Assembly: GCA_964036195.1 (NCBI GenBank) | Contig: OZ038450.1 | Coordinates: 5,768,701-5,832,700, forward strand | From: Sphaerolaimus hirsutus | Taxonomy: Eukaryota > Nematoda > Chromadorea > Monhysterida > Sphaerolaimidae | Direction of reading: 5' to 3' | DNA length: 64,000 bases | Part shown: piece by piece, positions 1,565 through 59,242 of the stretch | Position numbering within the stretch: the first letter of the stretch is position 1 | How the letters are laid out: each line of letters opens with the position of its first letter | Position numbers and translations under genes: made by a program | The notes under the pieces: generated by a model | The model's input: only the letters and a program-made list of their open reading frames with translations | Told to the model about the DNA's origin: nothing | Database searches by the model: none

Positions 1565-4500
1565 TTACAGGACCTGAAACACTTTGCAGGAAATTTCACA
1601 TTTTAAAATGTCTCCCCTTTTCCACCAACCCTCGTCCACAGTATCCTTGACAACGCTGCGCACGTGCGTCTGCGCGGCCACATAGTGATCTCTCTTCGTC
1701 TTGGCGTCGAGCACGCCGGCGCAGCACATCCACTGGGCCACGTCGTTGTCCAGCACCAGGTACTGCAAGATGTCTGACAGGGACACGATGCCGCGCGGTA
1801 CGCCGCTCGCCGCGTCGGTTACCACCATGCGATGCACCTCCGCCTTGACTAGACGCTCGATTACTGTTGCTAACGAGTCCGTTTCCGAGCAGTTGCGCAC
1901 CCCTTCGAACCACTGCGGGGGGGGGGGGGTTCAGTTTATTGCGATTGCCGCATATAAGCCGCTATGCTGTTGCCTCCTGGTAGTCCAGTTGGTTAGAGCA
2001 ATCACACATATAGTGAAAGGTTCCGGGTTCGAGTCCCGGCGAGGGCGAAAACATTTTTGTACCTTTTCTGTACATGGAGCCATGTACATACAAAACTTTT
2101 TAACAGTCTGTAATTCAAACCTCACAATCCATTAAACATCACAGACAGCCTCCATTTAAAACCGACCGCACTGCGATGTTTCAACGCCTCGGCGACGGTC
2201 ACATCCAAATCATTATAGGCGTTCTGCGCGGCCAAATGAATCACGTCGAATTTGGCGTAAATGTCGACCACCTTGCCTGAATCGTCAACGACAGGTAGGG
2301 CGCTTATGCGCCGATCCAAAAACATCGACAGCACCTCGATTATGGGCGTGGATTGGCGCGCCTGCAAAAGTGGGCGGAGCTTGGCGACTATGGCGGGGAT
2401 ATCGGTTGGTGCTCGATTTGAAATGCGGATAACACCGTAGGAGTGACAGGTAGGGTTCAAACGGGATCCCTATCCCGGATCCCGTGAAATTCCGGGATTT
2501 AGCAATCCCGATCCCGATCCTGAAATCCAAAAATACCAATCCCGATCCCGAAAACTTTCAAATCCCGATCCCGAGAATCTCCCAAGTCCGGGATCCCGAT
2601 CCCGGAAAAATAGTGAAAATTTTAAAAAGTGAAAAAATGACATTTTTGCGTGCAAAAATGTGAACGCAAACCCCCAGCGTCCATTTTATGTCACTTTTCT
2701 GGCATCCAACAGTGTTTTGAGACCTTTATGAACCACTGTGAATGCCAGAACAGTGACGAAAATCTCTACCCCTAGACCCCAATCCCGATCCCGAAAAAAT
2801 GCCAATCCCGATCCCGATCCCGTGACCCCAATCCCGGCCAATCCCGATCCCGAAATCTCAAAATACCAATCCCGATCCCGATCCCGAAACCCCGATCCCG
2901 AAATCTCAAAAAGTGAATCCCGATCCCGATCCCGAAATCTCAAAAAGTGAATCCCGATCCCGAAAAGTCAATCCCGTTTGAACCCTAGTGACAGGTGATA
3001 TTTACGTGGTGTCGAGTGATAAATTTTATGTGCGGGTGATAAGAAAACAATAGACTTAAAATTGAGGATTTAAAACAATTGACTAGAAATTTACTGCCTT
3101 ACTTATCACTTATCATTAAAGATTTACTGATACCGTATTTTTTCTAATAGCAGAGCGCCGTTTAATTTTATCGTCAACTTGTTGATATTAAACTTTTATA
3201 AATTAGCAACTATAAATAATCAATTCATTCATCGGGTTTCCAACCCTCAACGTTATAGAAATAGATTTTGATATAGCAACTAGCATCTTCGTCAACTAGA
3301 GAAAGGGAAATTTAACGACGGGCTTCAAACGGATTTGTCAGTTGACCGACAGTCAACTGGCGTGAAAAAAACAGTCAACTAAGCTTACCGTGACAACGTC
3401 GTCCCACGTGCCAATGCCGAGCTCCCTAGGCGTTTTCCGGAGAAAAGTAGGCCGCGGCAAATTGTGCAACTGCAAATGAGTTTCACAACGTGTTTCAACG
3501 TGAAGAAAAAAAACGAGTTAAAAAGTCAACTCACATTTATATAGAGGTATTTGATGATGCGTTTGTGAGTCAAAATGTAGATAATGTTGCCGGAAAATCT
3601 ATCGAGAACGGGTAACCGGTGCACCCGGTTGCTGCACAGCTGCCGCACCGCCTTGTACAAGCTGCAAATTGAAATTAAAGGGGTATATTATAAAAACCGG
3701 AGCAATTTGTCTAAGCTTGTAAAAAACTTAGCAGCTAAAAGGGCCCACACAGGGACATAGTTGACATCGCAAATAAATGTCAACCGAATGTCAACTAAAT
3801 TACACAAAAAAACTTTCTTAAGCATCACACTTCACAGAAACAATGAAAATTAAGTGACATGACAGAGAATTAACTATGCTCTATCACACAGGAAAGTTTA
3901 AATCATTTAATCAACCAAATTTTTGTAGGATTTAGTTGATACGAATTCTGATGTCAACCAGTGTGTGGGCCCAAAGTAGGGATAAATGGGCCTGTGCCGC
4001 TTGACATGTAACCCATTTGGAATGTACACAGCGGGTCAGGGGTTTCCAAGGGTTTGACGCTCGCGGCGGCATCATAGATAGCAAATCTCTAATCCGGAGG
4101 GATAGATAGTTGAAAATTATTCTGGGGGCTAGCTGGCAAAAATAATATGAGATATGGCAAAATTGACAAAATTTAGTGATTTTGGGTGAAGGTAGGGAAA
4201 AATCGCTCAAATTTTACTCCACTTAGATAGTAGATAGTTGAGAGGCTCAGGGGATAGTAGCCTCGATATAGATAGCTAACTGAGCAGCCCGCCGATCGGA
4301 CCGCCGCAACGGGTCTAGATGCCAAGCGGGTTAGATGCCAAGCGGGTTAGATGCCAAACGAGCCTACGCCAGCCGTAAGACTCACCTCTCGCAGGGATCT
4401 ACCGATATGATATCCTTCATTTTCCCGTCTTTCTCGAGCACCTCTGCGCAAAATTATCGCAGTAAAAAAACGAAAACTCGGGAAAAAACAAACAAAAACA

Positions 4501-7500
4501 GGAAGAAAAAACACACTAACCTCTCCAAGTAGAAATCTTATGGGTCTCCAGCTCTCTAATTCCGCCAGTCTGTCCCGCCTTATAATACCGATGCAAAATG
4601 TGTATGAAATCGGTGATTGTCAGCATGCCGACAAATCTCTGGTTGTCGCTGTCCCATAAGGGTGCCGCCCTGACGCCATTGTAAACGAGCGCAAAGAAGG
4701 CCTTTCTGACTGGCAACTGGGTGTCGAACACGACCAGGGGCAGTCCCAGACCCTGTAAAATGCCCTGTCAAACGTCAAATGTCACGCAAAGTGTCAAAAG
4801 TCTTGGAAAATGGCCGGTAAAACGGCAAAAGAATGTTTTACCGGGCATTTTCCATGACTTTTGACACTTTGCATGACATTTGATATTTTACACGGCATTT
4901 TACAGGGTCTGGGATTGGCACCAGCTTGGTGGAGGCGGGCACCAGCTCGTAGCACTGCTTGGAGCGCATGAACGCGCTCACCGCCACCTCCGGGTGCTCT
5001 GTACGTTTTGGGTTTTTGTGTGGGTTGAATGGGCGTTACCGAATTGTGCTTGTTTAGAGGGTTTTGTTTATGGTTCTCGGGATAGGTCAAGGAATGTCTT
5101 TCTAATATCAAATGATAATGAAATTAAGTATTTTTAAATTGTTGTTATAAGAATTCGATTCTGGCAGTGTCCTTTGCCCGAAAAATTGGGATCGGGAACC
5201 CACTCTAACTCTCAGAGTACAAAGGCAAGCCTGTGCAAAACCAATTATGCAAAACTATAGATCATGTAAGAATTTCACAACCTAAGTTATGCTTTTCTAG
5301 TCGAGGGGTCAACATTACACGACGTACTGAAAATCATCACCTAGTACGCATTTGCAAATTTCGTTTTGCACAGACAAATATAGCTCAAAAAAATAATAAA
5401 TTCCACGAAAACTCACCTAAAGATACTCTGGTCATTTCGTTCGTATCAGCAAATGACGCCTGCGGATCGGAGAAGAAATTGAATGACGTAAAAAATAGCA
5501 CAACGAACAATTCACTTTTAAATATAAGAAAGTGACAAGAAGTGCACCCGAAAACTTTGTCTTATCTGCCCGTCGTGACCGATTACTCGATTGCCTGGGG
5601 TTCTCTGATAGCGCCGCCATAAATTCAATCAATATTTGGGCGGTAAAACCGATCAATACTTCTATTTGCGATACTTAGAGTACGTACGCATTTTATACGT
5701 ACATACATAGGTATTGTTATATTTATTCGAGGCGTGTATTGACGTATTGTATCAAAGTTTGTGCATGGTGTACAAAATAGATTTATACAACCTTTTTATT
5801 TATGTATAAAGTACAGATTTTAACGGAACAGGAAGTAAATGCAAAAATGCTTCCACTCTACGTGCATAACTCGGCATACGTGCATATATGACGATCGGAT
5901 CACATGAATAATATCGTGTCAAAGTGAATATTTTAACACTGTCACTCTCGGATTCACTCATATTCTAGTGTTTTTGAACAGCTGCCAACTTAAGATTGTG
6001 GGTTAAAAAAATCCAAATCATTAATTTCTGCGCACCCGCTGTGCCCAGTAAAAAACGCATAAAAAATACAGAAATCTATGCAAACACGCATTATCGACGC
6101 GAAAACAACCGCGCTGCCGGCCCAGATTGTAAAAGGGAGGTAATCCCGGATTATTTACGTAAATAGTTCCTTGCGGGAAAGTGTATTTATTTACGCGCGG
6201 GGGTGGCGAAAGGGAATTATTGAGATGGGTTAATGTTTATAAGCAGCTGCAGTCAGAGTCTACAGAGTGCAGTCAGTTAATCAATCATTACTGTTGAACG
6301 GGGAACTTATTTGAAGTGAAAATTCAGAAAATATTTACATCACGTACATATGTATATGTATGTAGGTATTCTACCCGTAGTTACTTTAAATGTATTTACG
6401 TTTACTAGAAAAACACGTATACTCGAGTACTGAGTAAATACTGATTTACGTTTCCTCCGAAAAAATACACGTTGGTACGCGTATTTACTTGTCAAATGTC
6501 ATACAAAGTGTCTAAAGTAATGTAAAATGGCAAACGTACTTTTGCCACTTACTATGACATTTGCCACTTCCTATGACATTTTCCATGACTTTTCGACACT
6601 TTGCTTGACATTTGAAATTTTACAGGGTCTGGGACTGCTGAAACCGAAGTGAATTCTATCCCTGATTCCTGCATTTGTGTTAATAATTTTATTCGGATTA
6701 ATACGTGTCATTGTGAGTTCTTGTAATGTAAAAGTGAATTTTTGATTGTACGTGCATCTATGCAATACAAAACCGCACACAAAGAGAAAGGTTTATTCTA
6801 CAAAGCATCTACCTATTCGTGGCAAGAAATGTTAACATGTGTCTGCGACAACAGCTTGTAGGCTCGCAGAACAATGAAATGCATTCGAAAACGACCAGAA
6901 TGGCCACACACACGCTAGTTCACATCGACACCAAATGTCAACTGGTTCAGTTCCCAATTCAATGCTTGCGTTTGAACGTTATTCGTTGGCTCAACATCTA
7001 TCTTTGAATCGGGATCGGGACCAGTTGACATTTGGTGTCAATGTCAACTAGCGTGTGTAGGCCCTATAACACGGAAATTCAACAACCTAACAAAATTATT
7101 CGAAAATTAGAAAACAACTTTTGGAAGAAAAAAAGTCGAAATTAAAGATAATTTCAGAAAGTTATCCTGAAATTTGCCCGCGGCATTTTCCATGACTTTC
7201 GACACTTTGCATGACATTTGACATTTTACATGGTCCGGAACTCACACCAATTCTCCACCTCACACTCACACTAGTATCATCCGGGGTGGCGTCTCTCTCG
7301 TTCCCCCCCATCAGCGGGGACACGCTGCCCACGCTCCTAGACGCCCTAGAGCGGCGCAAACTGGGCGGCGACAAGTACCGCTTGACGGCCATGTCGTCGA
7401 ACGCGCAGTCGGTGGACGTGCCGGGCAGCGCGTACGCGTCCGACGAGGACACACTGGATTGTGGGAGCGAATGGCAAATGGCTACCCAGGGATGGAAAGG

Positions 7501-13544: not shown

Positions 13545-13781
13545 GGTGCCAGTTCCGCAAATTGAGAAGTGAGAAGTGAAGTGGCAAATGCGAAGTGAAT
13601 TGATAGGAAAATTGGCGAAAGCAAAGTGAAATGGCAAGTAAATTGGCAAAAGCGAAGTAAAAAAAAAGCAACAAAAAAAGCGATTTCCCTTCGCTTTTGC
13701 CAATTTCCTTCTCAATTCACTTCTCACTTCTCATTTCACTTCGCATTTGCCATTTCACTTCTCAAGTTGCGGAACTGGCCC
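13545..13781. repeat. Family-B MITE
   Basis: Palindromic: AGGTGCCAGTTCCGCAAATT at left and TTGCGGAACTGGCCCC at right enclose repeated GAAGTGAGAAGTGAA and its inverse. The ends have the same layout as family A (GGTGCCA, then TTCC). Copies also lie at 32.2, 42.7 and 55.5 kb. Confidence 0.75.
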
Positions 13782-26394: not shown

Positions 26395-26830
26395 TACCGT
26401 ATATCCTCGAATAAGACTCCAGGGGAGTTATTTTTTCGTCAGAGCTTTTGAGGGTGGAGTTATTCAAGGGGGGGAGTTATTCAAGGGCGGGTCTTATTTT
26501 TTCCTCAGAAACCTTGGACTTAATTCATTGTATGAATGCATTCTGTCAACTCATGTAATCCAGCTATTTGACAGTTCAACAACAACAAAAAGGTGTGTAG
26601 ACATTGCATACACGCTATGTATCTGCTGAAGCTGTCATACATTAACATTATTTTGTATTTTCATCGATCATTTTTGTAAAATATGCAGCATATTTTTCAC
26701 CATAGGGGGAGTTATTCAAGAGGGGGGAGTTATTCGAGGGAGGGAGTTATTTTTTCGTCAGAGTATTTGGGGGGAGTTATTCAAGGGCGGGGAGTTATTC
26801 GAGGGGGGTCTTATTCAAGAATATACGGTA
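26395..26830. mobile_element. Family-H element, ATATCC subfamily
   Basis: Terminal repeats TACCGTATATCCTCGAATAA and TTATTCAAGAATATACGGTA. The interior is dominated by GGGGGAGTTATTCAAGGG-type strings. No autonomous partner is visible in the window. Confidence 0.7.
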
Positions 26831-27588: not shown

Positions 27589-27770
27589 CTGTGGGCAGTC
27601 CCAGACCCTGTAAAATGCCCTGTCAAATGTCAAATGTCATGCAAAGTGTCAAAAGTCATGGAAAATGCCCGGTAAAATGGCAAACGAACGTCAAAAGTTT
27701 CCATGACTTTTGACACTTTGCATGACATTTTCCATTCTACAGGGCACTTCACAGGGTCCGGGACTGGCAC
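27589..27770 (-). other. Intron of the unidentified gene made of a family-A MITE
   Basis: The exon ends GCGCCTG|GTGCCAGTCCCGG, where the donor is the MITE's own end. The other end reads GGGACTGCCCACAG|AGTTGG, so this copy gives a canonical GT-AG intron of 182 bp made almost entirely of the MITE (27594-27769). Phases on both sides agree. Confidence 0.65.
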
Positions 27771-29606: not shown

Positions 29607-30450
29607 TGGCCATACACGTAAATACAGTAGATAAAAAGTATCCCACCCCTCTAGCGCTGGCGCTGCCTCAATCCGAACAGCCATGATAAAGATTGCCGGG
29701 GGGCAAAAATGCATGAGCACGAGCAGCCCGTGTGAAAAAGGGAAAAGTGCCCGCTTGACAGGATTGAATAGTGAATGCATATTTATGATGTTGTTTTTTG
29801 TTGACAGAAAGTTCACTTTGTGGGCACTTTGAAGGCAAATTCATGGAGAAAAAAGGTTTCTTCAGGCGGCTATTGACACAAAAGTTTTTGTAAAAGTCAC
29901 ATGCCCGTGTCTTCTCCTTTTGAAAGGAATTTATAAGGGGAAGTAGCCCAAATCAAAGGGTGCATTCAAAGGTTTCAACGTCAGCGATAACAAAAAATTA
30001 AAGAGATCTTTCAGAACAGAACGGAATTAAATATAACTACACAAAACAGTTAGCTTCTAAAACCTTTCTAAACCCTGCTACCTTTGAATTACTCTTTCGA
30101 TGTATCCCTTCAGAAATTCCCTCCTTCAAAAGGCTTTCATGGCGGAAAAACAGCCACCTATACCCACTACAGAAGAAAAAAGTCATTCAAGCGCAAAAAT
30201 ATCCCGCATACAAAACTCGCGCTACAGTAACATAGTGTCCACAATTGACTTCTCACTTGGACAAGATTAAAATACATACATGAATAAGTGGGCAAGTAAC
30301 GAAAGTCACGCGAGGCATGGACACAAAAGTTGCGCAGTGCACAGCCGCCGCGCTAAAGCAATAAATACATGGGCCGCCTGAAACGCGCCACCTGCTAATG
30401 CACAGGGGTCTAGTACAGGGAGGGGGGCTGAGGTGGGGTCTAGTACAGGG

Positions 30451-30636
30451 GGCAGTCCCAGACCCTGTAAAATGCCCTGGAAAGTGTCAAATGTCATGCA
30501 AAATGTCAAAAGTCATGGAAAATGCCCTGCAAAATGACTAACCGTTTGCCATTTTGCAGGGTAATTTAAATGACTTTTGACACTTTGCATGACATTTGAC
30601 ATTTTACAGGGCATTTTACAAGGTCTGGGGTTGGCA
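30451..30636. repeat. Family-A MITE
   Basis: GGCAGTCCCAGACCCTGTAA ... AAGGTCTGGGGTTGGCAC with flanking CAGGG on both sides (30446-30450, 30637-30641). It sits next to a reversed GATAGATAGC-family copy at about 30655-31110. Confidence 0.75.
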
Positions 30637-30654
30637 CCAGGGGAGAGGCTAAGG

Positions 30655-32243: not shown

Positions 32244-32495
32244 GGACCAGTTCCACAAATTGAGAAGTGAGTAGAAGTGAGAAGTAAAATGGTAAATGCG
32301 AAGTGAATTGACAAGTAAATTGGCCTAAGCGAAGGTTAATTACTTATTATTATTATTTTTTACTTTTTTACTTTTGCCAATTTACTTGCCATTTCACCTC
32401 GCTTTTGCCAATTTCCTTATCAATTCACTTCTCACTTATAGTTTAAGTCGCATTTGCCATTTTACTTCTCACTTCTCAATTTGCGGAAATGGCAC
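32244..32495. repeat. Family-B MITE
   Basis: GGGACCAGTTCCACAAATTG at left and TTTGCGGAAATGGCACCAG at right, with GAAGTGA/TCACTTC arms. It lies within an intron of the unidentified gene, a few bases from the preceding exon's end. Confidence 0.75.
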
Positions 32496-32527
32496 CAGTA
32501 CCCTACCCAACTGACAAACACGCCGAG

Positions 32528-36355: not shown

Positions 36356-36932
36356 TACCGTATTACCTCGAAATATCCCCAGGGGGCTTATTATTGCGCT
36401 AGCAAATTTTCAGGGGGGGGGCTTATTCGAGGGGGGCTATTATTTCGCCGGAACTTTTGTGAAATTCCACATAAACCCTGCCCTAACGTCACTCAGTAAT
36501 AGATTTCAACGTGTGTTCTGCATCATACAGATCACAAACCGCGGTATCTGTAGAGTACATTCTCTTTATACCGTATTTCCTCGAAATACCCCCCCTCAAA
36601 ATGGGCACGATGGATTTGTGGTCCGGGAAATGCATAACAGACGTTCAAAACACTCACTCTGTTACGTTAGAACATCGTTTATACCATCTACATCCTTATA
36701 TAAGGCTGTAAAAACTTAAAAATGGTGGTTATTGTCGCATTTTTCACGTTTTTCTCTCAAAATTCTCACTCTGAAACAATAAACCCCCGGGGTGTATTTC
36801 GAGGAAATACGGTACTCAATTTTGGTGGGGTATTGCGGGCGGGGGTTATTATTTCCTCAGCAAAATTTTAGAGGGGGTATTTCGAGGTGGGGGTGGGTAA
36901 TTCAAGGGGGAGTTAATTCGAAGTAATACGGT
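36356..36932. mobile_element. Family-H element with a second family-H copy nested inside
   Basis: The outer ends are TACCGTATTACCTCGAAATA and the inverse TTCGAAGTAATACGGT. The inner copy is 36569-36815, with ends TACCGTATTTCCTCGAAATA and TATTTCGAGGAAATACGGTA. The subfamilies differ at TTACC versus TTTCC. Confidence 0.75.
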
Positions 36933-46673: not shown

Positions 46674-49600
46674 TCACTGTTTGGCGAAATTGACACCTTT
46701 CTTGATGCTGGCCTGCAGTTCGGGCACGGCGGCCTTCACCAATTTCTCCTCGTACGAGCTCAGCTTGCCCAGGCCCAGACTCGACTCGGCGCCGTTTTTC
46801 TATGTTTTTAAGTGAGAGGTTTTTTAAGTGAGAGTTTTTTAAGTGGGAGTTTTTTAAGTGGGAGTTATTAAGTGGGAGTTTTTTAAGTGGGAGTTTTTAT
46901 GTGGGAGCGATAGATGATCGTGATCGGCGATTTTGGAAGTGATAATATCGATAACTCCCGCAAACTGACAACACCATCGGTCTACACCATTTACCGCAAA
47001 GCCGCACCGTACACTACCGAAACCGTAACTCACCCCCAGTTTGAGCGGCGTGGAGAAGTAGTCGACGCCGGCCACGTCCTTGGACTGCACGTAGGCGCAC
47101 TCGACCACCGGCTCGCCGTGCATGCCGCGCAGCAGCGACTCGGTGAAGCGCGCCGCCGCGAACGCCATCGACAGGGTCGCCGAGCCCTAAGCTCATTATG
47201 GGTACATGTTCAATGTGCTGCTTAAGGTCAGGGTGGTTTATTGGCACTTGAAGAGTTTCATTCTAAATGTGCACATTTTTAGATTTTTCAAAATCGCATT
47301 TTAAAGTTTGGCGTTGGCCCCACAGCGCCACGTTTGAGTGTCGATTCTTGCCCCGCACTTTTTGGATACCTCAAACATATTTCTAAATTTTTTGTACATA
47401 TTACCACCATTGGCCCGTGACGTAAACATAAGTTATAGTACATTTTACTGACCGTTCTTCAGAGTTTCATTTCGAAAGTGCACGCGTGCATTTAGTGAAC
47501 TTGGCGCTTGTGCACTTTCGTTTTGAAACTCAGAATTTTTACTCAGAGAATGCTTACCGGTACCGTATTTCCACGAAATACCCCCCTCAAAATAGGCACT
47601 ATGAATTAATAACCCCCCCCCCTCGAAATACCCCCCCCCCCAAATTGAGTGTAAATAGAACGTACATGACAAAAGGTGACACGCAAGGTTAAAGCCATTA
47701 TTAGACTAATTATTATTATTTTTATTATCTCGGGAACGAGATGGACTATAACAAAAAATTTTTTTTGCTAAAATGGGCAAAGCTATACGTGGACATAAAA
47801 TCCACGCCTAACTCGATTTTTCTGGATTTGGCGCTTGTGCACATTTGGAATGAAACTCTTCACTTGGCGGTCCGGGTGAAAAGGGGATCCCGAACTGCTG
47901 CCAATTATTGAACCCTGTAAAATGTAAAGTGTAAAATGTCATACAAAATTGTCAACTGTCATGCAAAGTGAAGCAGTTTCATCAATAAAAGCGTCTTCTC
48001 TTTTAATTTAAGCATGACATTTTACACTTGACTAGGGTTCAAAGGAGAACACGGTCTCGGTCAGGCAAAAATAAAAGTATACTCGGCGGACCGCGCGCTA
48101 TGCATTTTTTGGAAGGAAACACTCCATCATAACGTCATCATTAAAAAAATAAAAATAATTCCAGCAAAAATAGAAAAAAATGACGGGTAAAAAAATTTAT
48201 CCGACTCCGCCTACGCGACTCCGCCTTTTTCTTAAAAAAATTTTTTTTCTTTTTGTGAAAGTGCATACATAAGTATCCAGCTCGCGCGTTATCGACCAAG
48301 AAATAAATAATTTTGGGCGCATACTTTGCGGTCCGCCAGTATACCTATCGATCCAGATCCTGAGTACCCAGTCGCGTTTTCATACACAAAAACTAATTTC
48401 ACGATTGAATTTCGGTGATAAACAACAATCCCCGTTGTGATAAACAACAATCCCCAACGATCCCGATACCGCATCCGAAAATTTTCGGGATTTTGCGGTC
48501 CCGATACCGAAACCTCAATCCGGTCCCGATCCCGAAAACTCAAAAAACGAATCCCGATCCCGAAAAGTCGATCTCGTTCGAACCCCACTGACAGTTCAAG
48601 TTTCTCTCTCAACACTCAAACCTCTGCAAAAAAACGCACCGCTCCCGCCTTTGCCTTGACGACTTCCGTGCCGGCGTCCTGAATCCTGGCGGTGAGCTTC
48701 TCCAGGGCGGCCTGGTCGAAGTGGACGCGCGGCTTGCACTGGCTGATCAGGGGGATGATGGTGACGCCCGCGTGCCCGCCCACCACGGGGCAGTTCACTT
48801 GGAGCACGTCTAGGGCCTGGGAGAGCGGAGTTTAGCGGGTGAATTATGCAGCTGGAGAAGTAAGTTAACCGGTTTAGAAGTGAGAAGTAGAAAGCTAAAA
48901 GCGAAGTAAAATTAGACGTGAAATGAGAAGTAAAAAGTTCAAAACTAAGTAAAATTGGAAGTTGAAAAAGTTAAAGGTTTACTTCGCTTTTTTTGTTTAC
49001 TCATTAAATCACTTCTCATACCTTATTTTACTTCGCTTTTCAACCTTTTACCTCTGACTAAAATGTTTTTTTGTTACAGATGTTTGCGGAACCCCTGATT
49101 GCAGTTTGTAGTGTAATCTAACAAATATAATCTGAATAACCAAACCGTTTAGTTTTTGCTAGTGGATTTTAGCACACTTCCGTTTTACCTTTCCGTTTTC
49201 CGGCAACAAATTTTCTTGCCTTTCCGTTTTTTCACAAAAAAATTATTGGCAATTCTCTTCTAGTTCACCCTCGGCCAAGCACTAAAATCACTTCCTTCCA
49301 CCGATTTGGACATTGTCAAACTACTTACCTTCGCGTCGGCAATGAACGCATTCGACCGAACGATGTCCAGCGTGGTCACACCGAAAATGCGCCTGGGGTC
49401 GAGCTTGCCCGCCTTGGCGAACACCTCGCACGCGATCGGCACAGTGCTGTTCACCTGCGGCAGTACATAGGGGGGGGGGGGGTAAATGACGCACATCGAA
49501 GTAGGGTGAAACGAGATTGAATGACATTTTTCGGTCCGAGACCAGAGGATCTCGAATAGGGATAGGACGATATATCGTATCGAATTTCGACTAGTTTTTC

Positions 49601-50772: not shown

Positions 50773-52146
50773 TAGGGTTCAAACGGGACCGCGGTCCCGG
50801 TACATGGTTCGGCAAAAAGTCGGGACTGGGGCGGTCCCCGTCCCGGTCCCGACACCACAGTCCCGGTCCCGGTCCCGACAATTGAAAAAAGCCAGTCCCG
50901 GTCCCGGTCCCGACCACCCATTCCCGGTCCCGGTCCCGGAATTTTATAGCGGTCCCGACAAGGGATGGCAAAAACGTATTTTTCAAAAAAAAATTTGCCA
51001 GAATTGGCACTTTTCTAAAGCGATTTTGTAGGAACATCTCAAAACTTTTTGCGCGCCAGCGCGCAAATACCCAGCCAATGATTACTATGTATTATTCCAT
51101 GATGTGACAGCGTTAGAAAGGTCCCCAACATGATTCTAGTTAGGGTTGGAAAAAAAACGTTTTTTTTAACTCGATGTTTTTTTTACAAAAAAACGTTTTT
51201 TTTAAAAGCTCCCAGATATGACCTAGTGTCAACATATATAGGTATATCAGACACTGGCAATACTCTGTGATGTTAAATATGACCATATAATGGCTGTGGA
51301 GCCATGGGATAGCATTATAAGTGGTGATTTGTGTCAAGAATATCCATTTTTCGTCGACATATCGTTCGTATATCGCCTTATAGTCGAATGTTCGTGACTT
51401 CAGGTAAAGTTTGGCACGGAATGGTGATCAAACAAGGTTATAAAATGAGGTTGTTACTTTGGGAGTGAAGTTACACACTGTGGAGGTACATGGAAGCACA
51501 TTACCTCAATATTATATATTACAGCAACATATGTCGGCTTATTCACCCATGGTAGCACATAGAAATGGATGTTTTGATACTAAAAATGCAACAAAACCAA
51601 TGAAAACAACCACCAATGTCAATTTGTCTGTGAAATTGCGCGCTTGCGCGCAAAAATTTTGCAAAATACCTAGTGCTTAGTACTAAAAATTTTGGCCGAT
51701 GTTTTTTTTTTAAAGTATATAACGATACCTATATTGTAGACGTTGGCGCCAACGCCAGCGCCAATACTGGCATGGCGATGGCACCTGCAACTGGCGCCGC
51801 CCCCCCCCCAAAAAAAAAATCCTGCGTACATTGCGTTTCATCATATATTCACAACTTCAAGTGAAGATGGCAATGGAATACTGCTTGAATAATGTTACAA
51901 GAAAAGGCTAATACATCGAGAGTGGTCCTTCACACAGTGGAGGTGTGTGGAACAACATTGGCTGGATATCACATACCAATAAGGTTCAAACAATACCGCG
52001 GTGCCGGTACCTGGTTCGGCAAATCCCAGTCCCGGTCCCGGTCCCGGTCCCGACAATTAAAAAAAGCCAGTCCCGGTCCCGGTCCCGACATGAGAAAATT
52101 TCTGGTCCCGATCCCGGTCCGAAAAACTGGTCCCGTTTGAACCCTA
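50773..52146. mobile_element. hAT-like element with CCCGGT satellite interior, composite
   Basis: Outer ends TAGGGTTCAAACGGGACC and GGTCCCGTTTGAACCCTA, with perfect 8-bp duplication gtaaaatg (50765-50772, 52147-52154). A second left end of the same family (GGTTCAAACAATACCGCGG, 51980) lies inside, so two copies are fused or one is inserted in the other, with a TAGGGTTG-family copy between. Confidence 0.75.
51141..51712. mobile_element. hAT-like element, TAGGGTTG family, right end lost
   Basis: Starts TAGGGTTGGAAAAAAAACG and matches the 11.0-kb copy up to GGCCGATGTTTT. It then runs into GGCGCCA-rich sequence. Confidence 0.65.
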
Positions 52147-55498: not shown

Positions 55499-55740
55499 GG
55501 TGCCAGTTCCGCAATATGAGGAGTGAGAAGTGAAATGGCAAAGGCAAAGTAAAAGCGTAAAGGCGAACTGAAATGGCAAGTGAATTGGCAGATGAAATGG
55601 CAAAAGCTGAGAGAAATTATTGTTTATTTTTATTTTTTTACTTCGCTTTTACCGATTCACTTGCCGTTTCACTTTGCCTTTGCGCTTTTACTTCGCCTTT
55701 GCCATTTCTCTTCGCAGTTCTCATTTTGCGGGATTGGCCC
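55499..55740. repeat. Family-B MITE
   Basis: GGTGCCAGTTCCGCAATATG at left and CATTTTGCGGGATTGGCCCC at right, with the usual GTGAAATGGCAAA arms. Confidence 0.75.
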
Positions 55741-55812
55741 CTGCACTATTGATAATCCCATTCCCGATTCCAATCCCTAAAATTCAGTCAACTCGAACCG
55801 TGCACACGGCAC

Positions 55813-58099: not shown

Positions 58100-59242
58100 T
58101 ACCGTATTACCTCGAAATACCCCCATGGGGGTTTATTATTTCGCCAGAAAATTTGAGGGGGGGTTAATTCGAGGGGGGGGGGGGGGTTTATTCAAGGGGG
58201 GTTTTATTATTTCGCCAGAAATTTTCGTAAGTTCCGTAGTAAATAGTAGGCATTTGCATACCCAAAACAGGTAATAAATGTGTCCAAACTAGGGTTGGCA
58301 AGCGATTTTTTTTAAGCGATTTTTTTTTAAAAAAATCGCAGCACCCGTACCGATTTTAAAAAAAAAAATCGCTGGCTATAAATTTTGGTACTCGAGCACT
58401 AGGTAAAATGCAAAAATTTTGCGCGCAAGCGCGGACTTTCATGCAAACAATCCATCAGTTACTTTTTTCATTGCTTTTACAACCAATTTGGGGGTGTAGT
58501 ACGCATTTATGTGTGCTTTTAAGCGTGTAAGGTAGGCTGTAAATCATTTTAGGAAGTATTCATAGTTATGCTTTGTGTTGTCACATCAAACATTTATGCA
58601 AATGCATCCATGTTCACTTCCAATATGATTTATAGTTTGTTCTGAGCAAGAACATGCTATTTCTGCAAACAAAATTGCAAATGGTCGATGAAATGTGATT
58701 CACGTCACAAATATAACAACTTAATTACTTTTACACTTAAAAATAACTGACTTTCAAGCTTTTCCGAACCTCTACAGTACTTATATTAGCACAGAAAGCA
58801 TAAGTGTGCACTCTCTATCAATTTTTATGGCTTTTATCACCCCCAGAGGCGATTTTAGGCAGAAATGGGGCTAATTTTGACCCCAGCGATTTTTATTAAA
58901 AAAATCGATTTTTTTTAAAAAAATCGATTTTTTTTTTAAAAAATCGGGGTCGTTAAAAAAAATCGATTTTTTTCCAACCCTAGTCCAAACAGGAGACATT
59001 GTACAATAAAACGTTGATAGCTACACAAACTAGTCTATGTGTAGTTGCAATGCAAATTAACAGTAATATACATCATGTATACATTGCATACATGACGTAT
59101 TTATTGTGTACTCGACGTACATCATTCCAAGGGGGGGTATTTCGAGGGGGGGGGGGTTATTATTTCCCCAGCCCATTTTGAGGGGGGTTTATTCGAGGGG
59201 GGGTTAATTCAAGGGGGGGGGATAATTCGAGGTAATACGGTA
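58100..59242. mobile_element. Family-H element, TTACC subfamily, carrying a hAT-like insertion
   Basis: TACCGTATTACCTCGAAATA at left and ATTCGAGGTAATACGGTA at right; the interior is split at GTCCAAAC by the 58.29-kb element. Confidence 0.75.
58290..58982. mobile_element. hAT-like element with AAAAAATCGATTTTTT arms
   Basis: TAGGGTTGGCAAGCG ... TTTTTTCCAACCCTA, perfect 8-bp duplication gtccaaac (58282-58289, 58983-58990). Confidence 0.9.

Follow-up and report, generated by a model that had tools for sequence, protein, structure and literature searches.

The window analysed here, a stretch of 64,000 nucleotides from the nematode Sphaerolaimus hirsutus, carries on its minus strand the CBS-domain part of an AMPK gamma gene, whose exon borders were placed by hand from the sequence (Table 1). 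The exons found are all open and the introns run from GT to AG, with the exception of a single one that appears to derive from a MITE. In fact, one of the exons is interrupted on the minus strand, at positions 4735-4921, by a near-palindromic, MITE-type insert of 187 bp, the inverted-repeat arms of which are 83 nt long each and 90% complementary. Keeping the insert shifts the frame (187 = 3 x 62 + 1) and brings in a stop codon located inside it; its exact excision, from 4921 to 4735, returns KLVVFDT and a 47-residue stretch to a single frame, so that the original prediction of a MITE splitting K-L from V-V in a continuous peptide is borne out. The ACCAG direct repeats described at the same time are real, but the duplicated target is the 3-bp CTG on the gene strand and not ACCAG, the extra GT consisting of the first two bases of the element on the left and of exon sequence on the right. 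Searches of the 64,000-nt window with tRNA and Rfam models gave no result.

Table 1. Coordinates, in the window, of the AMPK gamma exons and of the features of the insert.
Feature	Position	Strand	Remarks
Interrupted exon, upstream part	4922..4998	-	Start by AG acceptor, placed by hand
Left target-site triplet CTG	4922..4924	-	End of the upstream exon part
Predicted intron	4735..4921	-	MITE (4921-4738) plus right-hand target triplet CTG (4737-4735); GT start, TG end
Internal acceptor-like TTTTACAG	4753..4760	-	18 nt ahead of the exact 3' end; alternative acceptor, exon resuming at 4752, adding GLGLPL
Right target-site triplet CTG	4735..4737	-	Predicted 3' end of the intron, not AG
Interrupted exon, downstream part	4521..4734	-	
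Next exon	4386..4443	-	Canonical borders
Exon	3535..3661	-	
Exon	3389..3469	-	
Exon	2167..2361	-	
Last identified exon	1751..1912	-	Part up to the 3' limit as found; true limit may differ

The restored protein aligns with human AMPK gamma-1 (residues 7-304 aligned, E = 2.3e-109) and, among the best 120 of 2351 homologs, its best match is the one from the nematode Plectus sambesii, with 67% identity over 296 residues. The insertion site is intact in all 118 homologs checked among these best 120 of 2351, in 105 by a strict motif and in 13 by eye (P0021 and P0049 were left out), in keeping with the earlier claim that the peptide is unbroken in animal AMPK gamma. Conservation at the site is far above chance, and the match to the CBS profile (residues 35-86) runs over the junction, at 38/39.

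A search of the genome (348 Mb in 762 contigs) with the insert gave 80 matches at 83-100% identity, corresponding to 40 places each seen on both strands, which are the 40 that were scored, from 2,512 first-look candidates. When oriented by their ends, and with substitutions allowed, the 40 fetched copies follow the pattern CWG/GTGCCAGTCCCAGACCCTGTAAAATG...CATTTTACAGGGTCTGGGACTGCCCC/CWG; the duplicated target across the family is 3 bp, CWG, and 33 of the 40 have CAG or CTG on the left. A CWG triplet is duplicated on either side of most copies sampled: in 84 elements, from samples partly chosen for CTG, the flanking triplets are CTG/CTG in 42 cases, CAG/CAG in 19 and CTG/CAG in 8, other pairs being fewer. 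The left and right triplets are unequal (CAG/CTG) in L020, L023, L035, L036, L044 and L054, perhaps as a result of mismatch correction inside the hairpin. The related loci L003 and L006, separated by about 117 kb on C2, carry the insertion at an identical site, with CAG and CCG, respectively, as left triplets, which suggests that the insertion they have in common is older than a duplication.

The element is a near-perfect palindrome with GT at one end only. The 192-nt family consensus is almost identical to its own reverse complement, with 3 mismatches over the 96 positions of the arms, and two of them (positions 2 and 4) make a GTGCC end as against GGGGC, so that the palindrome is broken at the splice donor. 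The median copy is 4.7% diverged from the consensus; the genome contains 389 perfect CTG-type left ends of 29 bases and 175 copies with the full CTG..CTG pattern. The family has the features of a MITE, being short, bordered by TIR, flanked by a target duplication, present in many copies and devoid of coding capacity, as judged from the 192-nt consensus only. Other copies in the window are mostly degenerate or located within AT-rich DNA, hence the family is not limited to exons; two, at 27593-27770 and at 30449-30637, lie in GC-rich DNA and have kept their sequence well. The first of these, on the minus strand, lies in a GC-rich (0.65) stretch that is open on both strands, and could be another exonic copy. 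The window also contains a scattered G-rich repeat family (GGGGGTTATTCAAGGGGG-like; 26419-26809, 36379-36892 and 58124-59237), runs of the short repeats AATCCCGATCCCGAAAT and GTCCCGGTCCCGAC (2504-2966, 48516-48603 and 50860-52124) and a second inverted-repeat family (AGAAGTGAGAAGTGAAATGGCAAA-like; 13565-13781, 32273-32496 and 55499-55741).

The sister copies were then considered as possible interruptions of other genes. From each copy the element and one triplet were removed, and the frames crossing the junction and open on both sides were taken, the peptides having a minimum open length of 12 residues to either side of the junction and of 40 (first sample) or 45 (later samples) in total. Loci L001-L008 and L017-L050 come from the 40 scored candidates with the greatest similarity to the AMPK gamma copy; L052-L079 correspond to the first 28 entries, in list order, of the 389 perfect CTG left ends; L080-L139, with CTG at both ends, come from 100 listed of the 175 full copies, without the 30 on C1, the first on C2, neighbouring and almost identical copies on C6 and C7 and the final entries of the list. 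Since the samples were picked partly for CTG, the ratios of CTG to CAG ends are not genome-wide ones. The right ends of L001, L021 and L027, and in the triplet counts of L033 too, were shifted by one base by hand, and in 4 of the 28 loci L052-L079 a right end was not found. The length of the reading frame over the junction was of little use as a coding test (at least 80 aa in 38/40 sense and 30/40 antisense cases), and Pfam was used for this reason.

In the first sample (40 copies), 24 Pfam families were matched by 77 sense peptides, and 59 antisense peptides gave one weak, coiled-coil-like family (E = 0.0014); the second sample (40 copies, chosen by CTG ends) gave 11 families in 68 sense peptides against 0 in 54 antisense ones, and the third (40 copies, sense only) 12 families in 58 peptides, it being understood that one locus can yield several families in these counts. 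In single scans, the Pfam match spans the junction for CBS, FMO, trypsin, FLYWCH, RRM, DB, cation efflux, WD40, OSCP1, CHGN, weakly FYVE_2, GT92, Patched, laminin N, PPP2R1A, PLOD, M18, E1, UNC80 and the homeodomain, and the junction lies near the edge of the match for 7tm and Mito_carr; in four batches of singly scanned peptides, 1/10, 6/10, 7/10 and 1/10 had no Pfam family. The matches of WD40 (L041), TPR (L030), PAN (L003), FYVE_2 (L027) and the zinc finger (L060) fall under the curated cut-offs. Alignments to solved structures pass through the junction free of gaps for PP2A-A, LH3/PLOD and aspartyl aminopeptidase, each of them from a copy ending in CTG. A DB module, a domain not known outside nematodes, is broken up by one of the insertions, and the 7TM_GPCR_Srx and Srsx families are among the restored genes; together with the best AMPK gamma match in Plectus, these families point to a nematode-like host. 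Pfam support was obtained for 8 of the 28 copies L052-L079, namely L053, L056, L058 (the AMPK gamma copy itself), L060 (weak) and L068, from individual Pfam tables, and L067, L069 and L078, by eye from family names.

In the supported conserved genes the gene strand is the strand of the GT end, with the single exception of L028, a PRKG-like exon (E = 1.2e-5) in which the element is reversed relative to the gene and the 5' end in gene sense is CAG/GC, perhaps a GC donor gained by mutation. As is distinctive of introners, similar putative introns, deduced from the restored frames, are found at unrelated gene positions and are alike up to both boundaries, and the signature of a mobile element (TIR and target duplication) is present. 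The claim that the MITE must leave as an intron, in the manner of introners, thus finds strong support at the level of sequence, in the frameshift and stop, in the open exons and in the sister copies.

The junction at which the insert would be removed was compared in 23 loci, reduced to 22 supported ones by dropping L088, which gave 0 Pfam families when scanned singly; Calpain_III, one of the families of the second sample, had first been assigned to this locus, an assignment contradicted by the single scan. Four of the 22 (L067, L069, L078 and L097) were tied to Pfam families by eye and the other 18 from individual tables. Retention leads to a stop or a change of frame in 23/23 tabulated loci (L088 included). 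Exact removal restores the frame in all of them by construction, and restores conserved sequence too. Of the two frame-preserving options originally put forward, both are indeed in frame in AMPK gamma. The second, in which splicing would use canonical GT-AG ends at 4921 and at the internal TTTTACAG, with GLGLPL added to the protein, gives an open product in this copy, and TTTTACAG/G is closer to the nematode acceptor consensus (UUUUCAG/R, in the cited part of PMC4889670) than CCCCTG/G. However, the nearest TTTTACAG of the standard element leaves 19 nt, a frameshift, and it is only by the loss of one C that the AMPK gamma copy leaves 18 nt; a TTTTACAG-type motif occurs near the 3' end in 19/22 loci and the nearest is in frame solely in AMPK gamma, being out of frame in the other 18. 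Furthermore, none of the 118 checked homologs (best 120 of 2351) has an insertion where GLGLPL would lie, and the CBS profile match crosses that very point. Use of the internal acceptor is thus unlikely, and exact GT..TG removal is favoured for AMPK gamma because the nearest TTTTACAG shifts the frame elsewhere. Motifs of this type located farther away are in frame in AMPK gamma, L067 and L068.

Splicing from an internal GTAAAA to TTTTACAG, with 12 extra residues, was attractive given that these motifs are present in both orientations; it was rejected, the use of the two outer GTAAAA motifs being out of frame in the tabulated loci with both motifs, AMPK gamma excepted. Other GTAAAA motifs would be in frame in L053 (at +68) and in L056 (at +25, with a far acceptor). 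Judged by its sequence, this MITE family looks like one of introners that leave by exact removal.

A second AMPK gamma locus is present in the same genome (C2:25180570-25184679), and one of its exons passes the insertion site uninterrupted (STKLVIFDTQLPV), providing an empty site within the genome. This bears on the original statement that the gene survives only if the MITE is removed, which holds for the window copy and not necessarily for the animal, since the latter may also be able to rely on the paralog. The unbroken site on C2 would also suit a window copy that is dying, with the MITE retained or mis-spliced and the paralog supplying AMPK gamma. We regard this as improbable, because the exons found in the window copy are open and have kept their splice sites, its protein shows 67% identity with that of Plectus over 296 residues as against 43-67% for the pieces of the paralog, insertions of the same family occur in other conserved genes, and the C2 copy itself may have a frame break near its 3' end. 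This apparent break, between ...LVRAEV and RMVV... (L051, about 2571-2578, minus strand), could be an intron, an error or decay. The AMPK gamma copy of the element is 7.6% diverged from the family consensus, and neutral decay to this extent would leave the AMPK gamma frame without a stop with P = 0.088; taken alone, the argument from the intact frame is weak evidence.

The 3' end is the unusual feature of these inserts. Exact removal would end in TG at 15 of the 22 supported loci (AMPK gamma included), in AG at 6 and in CG at 1, these loci having been selected in part for CTG; a left CTG had guided the choice of the 12 loci taken from beyond the first forty, and the ten loci tabulated from the first forty alone have AG in 4, TG in 5 and CG in 1. 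The 5' GT is kept in the AMPK gamma insert, and a 3' AG is found in only 6/22 supported loci, so either UG acceptors would be in wide use or a less-known process removes the inserts. A rival explanation is the cutting of the element from somatic DNA, as for the internal eliminated sequences of ciliates, which could be expected to remove it exactly, leaving one copy of the short target repeat, and for which non-AG ends would not matter; DNA removal is nevertheless blind to the gene strand, and the conserved genes lie on the strand of the GT end with the one exception of L028, so this is a very improbable explanation.

The predicted hairpin of the AMPK gamma insert has an energy of -132.7 kcal/mol, and 23 elements fold as very stable hairpins with a median of -144.1 kcal/mol. 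A TTTTACAG-type motif lies 18-19 nt upstream of the 3' end in 16/22 supported loci, and the AG of the nearest TTTTACAG is paired in 20/20 predicted folds having one (L088 included). The 3' triplet is fully unpaired in only 2/23 folds, so the modelled hairpin would not simply expose the ends. The donor of the AMPK gamma insert is predicted to be weak, its duplex with U1 reaching -3.8 kcal/mol compared with -5.5 to -10.8 for four other donors of the gene. Non-AG ends are followed by GT in 12/16 supported loci (L088 left out), as against 3/106 for the CTG triplets present in the exon flanks of the same 23 loci; the corresponding figures for the end are 0/13 in other CTG-ended copies, two of which are the central loci L053 and L055, and 14/40 in the third sample, where GT follows in the conserved genes L102 and L136 and not in L128 and L131. 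The excess of GT past non-AG ends may reflect selection for spliceability or target choice. An obligatory G after CTG (43/46 against 13/30 after CAG) was dropped as a proof of splicing, given that it is found after other copies too (10/13).

We consider it probable that the insert is a MITE-derived intron, an introner, and that its family made many introns in this genome: the GT end lies at the 5' side of the conserved genes, with one exception, and exact removal together with one triplet restores them. Splicing of the pre-mRNA would start at the GT that the element itself brings (4921) and end with the second copy of the target triplet (4735), so that a CAG triplet would give an ordinary GT-AG intron and the CTG of AMPK gamma a GT-TG one. 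The nematode-type acceptor motif TTTTACAG, 18 nt upstream, might attract U2AF and fix the branch step, the hairpin would keep its AG within the stem, and the second splicing step would then take the triplet at the edge of the element. By analogy, this mechanism would combine the human TG sites found beside an AG, the C. elegans model of U2AF and a neighbouring AG, and the ability to do without AG that C. elegans splicing reportedly has. The stronger claim, for which the balance is even, is that many MITE-made introns have a UG 3' splice site wherever the target is CTG, and that the spliceosome, or a hairpin-assisted variant of it, accepts the non-AG end constitutively, including in the very conserved PP2A-A (L128) and in a mitochondrial carrier resembling the phosphate carrier (L092).

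If true, this would be an introner burst in an animal lineage for which no introner report was found in the open-licence papers listed, many copies of the source element can still be recognised, and the birth of introns would become testable in an animal. It would also mean that the 3' AG rule can relax on a large scale with GT being kept, which bears directly on the choice of site in the second step of splicing.

According to the part of the introner survey cited here, many introner families carry TIR and/or short target duplications and make introns in many genes, some families having one splice site in the element and the other from the duplication; most leave the length of the mRNA unchanged, and their ends are GT..AG, GC and GA donors being rare (Gozashti et al., 2022; PMC9860276). 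Within animals and land plants, the same part reports introners from no more than two groups, both of them animals, and the string "nematod" is absent from the main text. In the cited part of a study on intron gain in 104 nematodes, introners are mentioned only as found elsewhere (PMC9169325), and a nematode introner was not found in the titles and abstract openings listed from the open-licence literature. The inserts described here resemble the surveyed introners in their TIR, their short target duplication and their insertion in many genes, the introns being in our case deduced from sequence; they differ in that the exact 3' end is TG in 15/22 supported loci, partly chosen for CTG. In Aureococcus, introners adding 12 bp to the mRNA have both splice sites inside the element (as given in the cited part of PMC9860276), and the GLGLPL alternative would require the same arrangement; unlike in Aureococcus, exact removal is favoured here, the nearest internal acceptor being out of frame in the other loci that have one.

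Many introns without GT/AG borders are found in tunicates, another animal lineage, compared with which (in the cited part of PMC13326754) the 5' GT is here kept and the variation concerns the 3' AG only. In the part of the study cited, human TG 3' splice sites occur only as alternatives to an AG lying within 28 nt, and never as the sole acceptor (PMC2374985); the TTTTACAG-type motif upstream of the 3' end in 16/22 loci is reminiscent of them, whereas TG would here have to be the productive site. A model for C. elegans, in the part cited, has U2AF marking one site and the second step using a neighbouring AG (PMC4889670). In the nonconventional introns of euglenids, as described in the cited part of the source, a CAG at +4 to +6 pairs with a CTG at -8 to -6 (PMC4770533), and a non-spliceosomal, hairpin-guided removal of RNA of this type would fit the MITE-like hairpin, the CAG near the 5' end opposite a CTG near the 3' end and the non-canonical 3' borders, but it is the least probable of all the explanations, since the register differs (+5 to +7 and -10 to -8 in a CAG-ended copy) and the kept 5' GT and the bias for the gene strand point to U1. 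Judged by the features tested, the putative MITE-derived introns form an introner-like system, the AG excepted.
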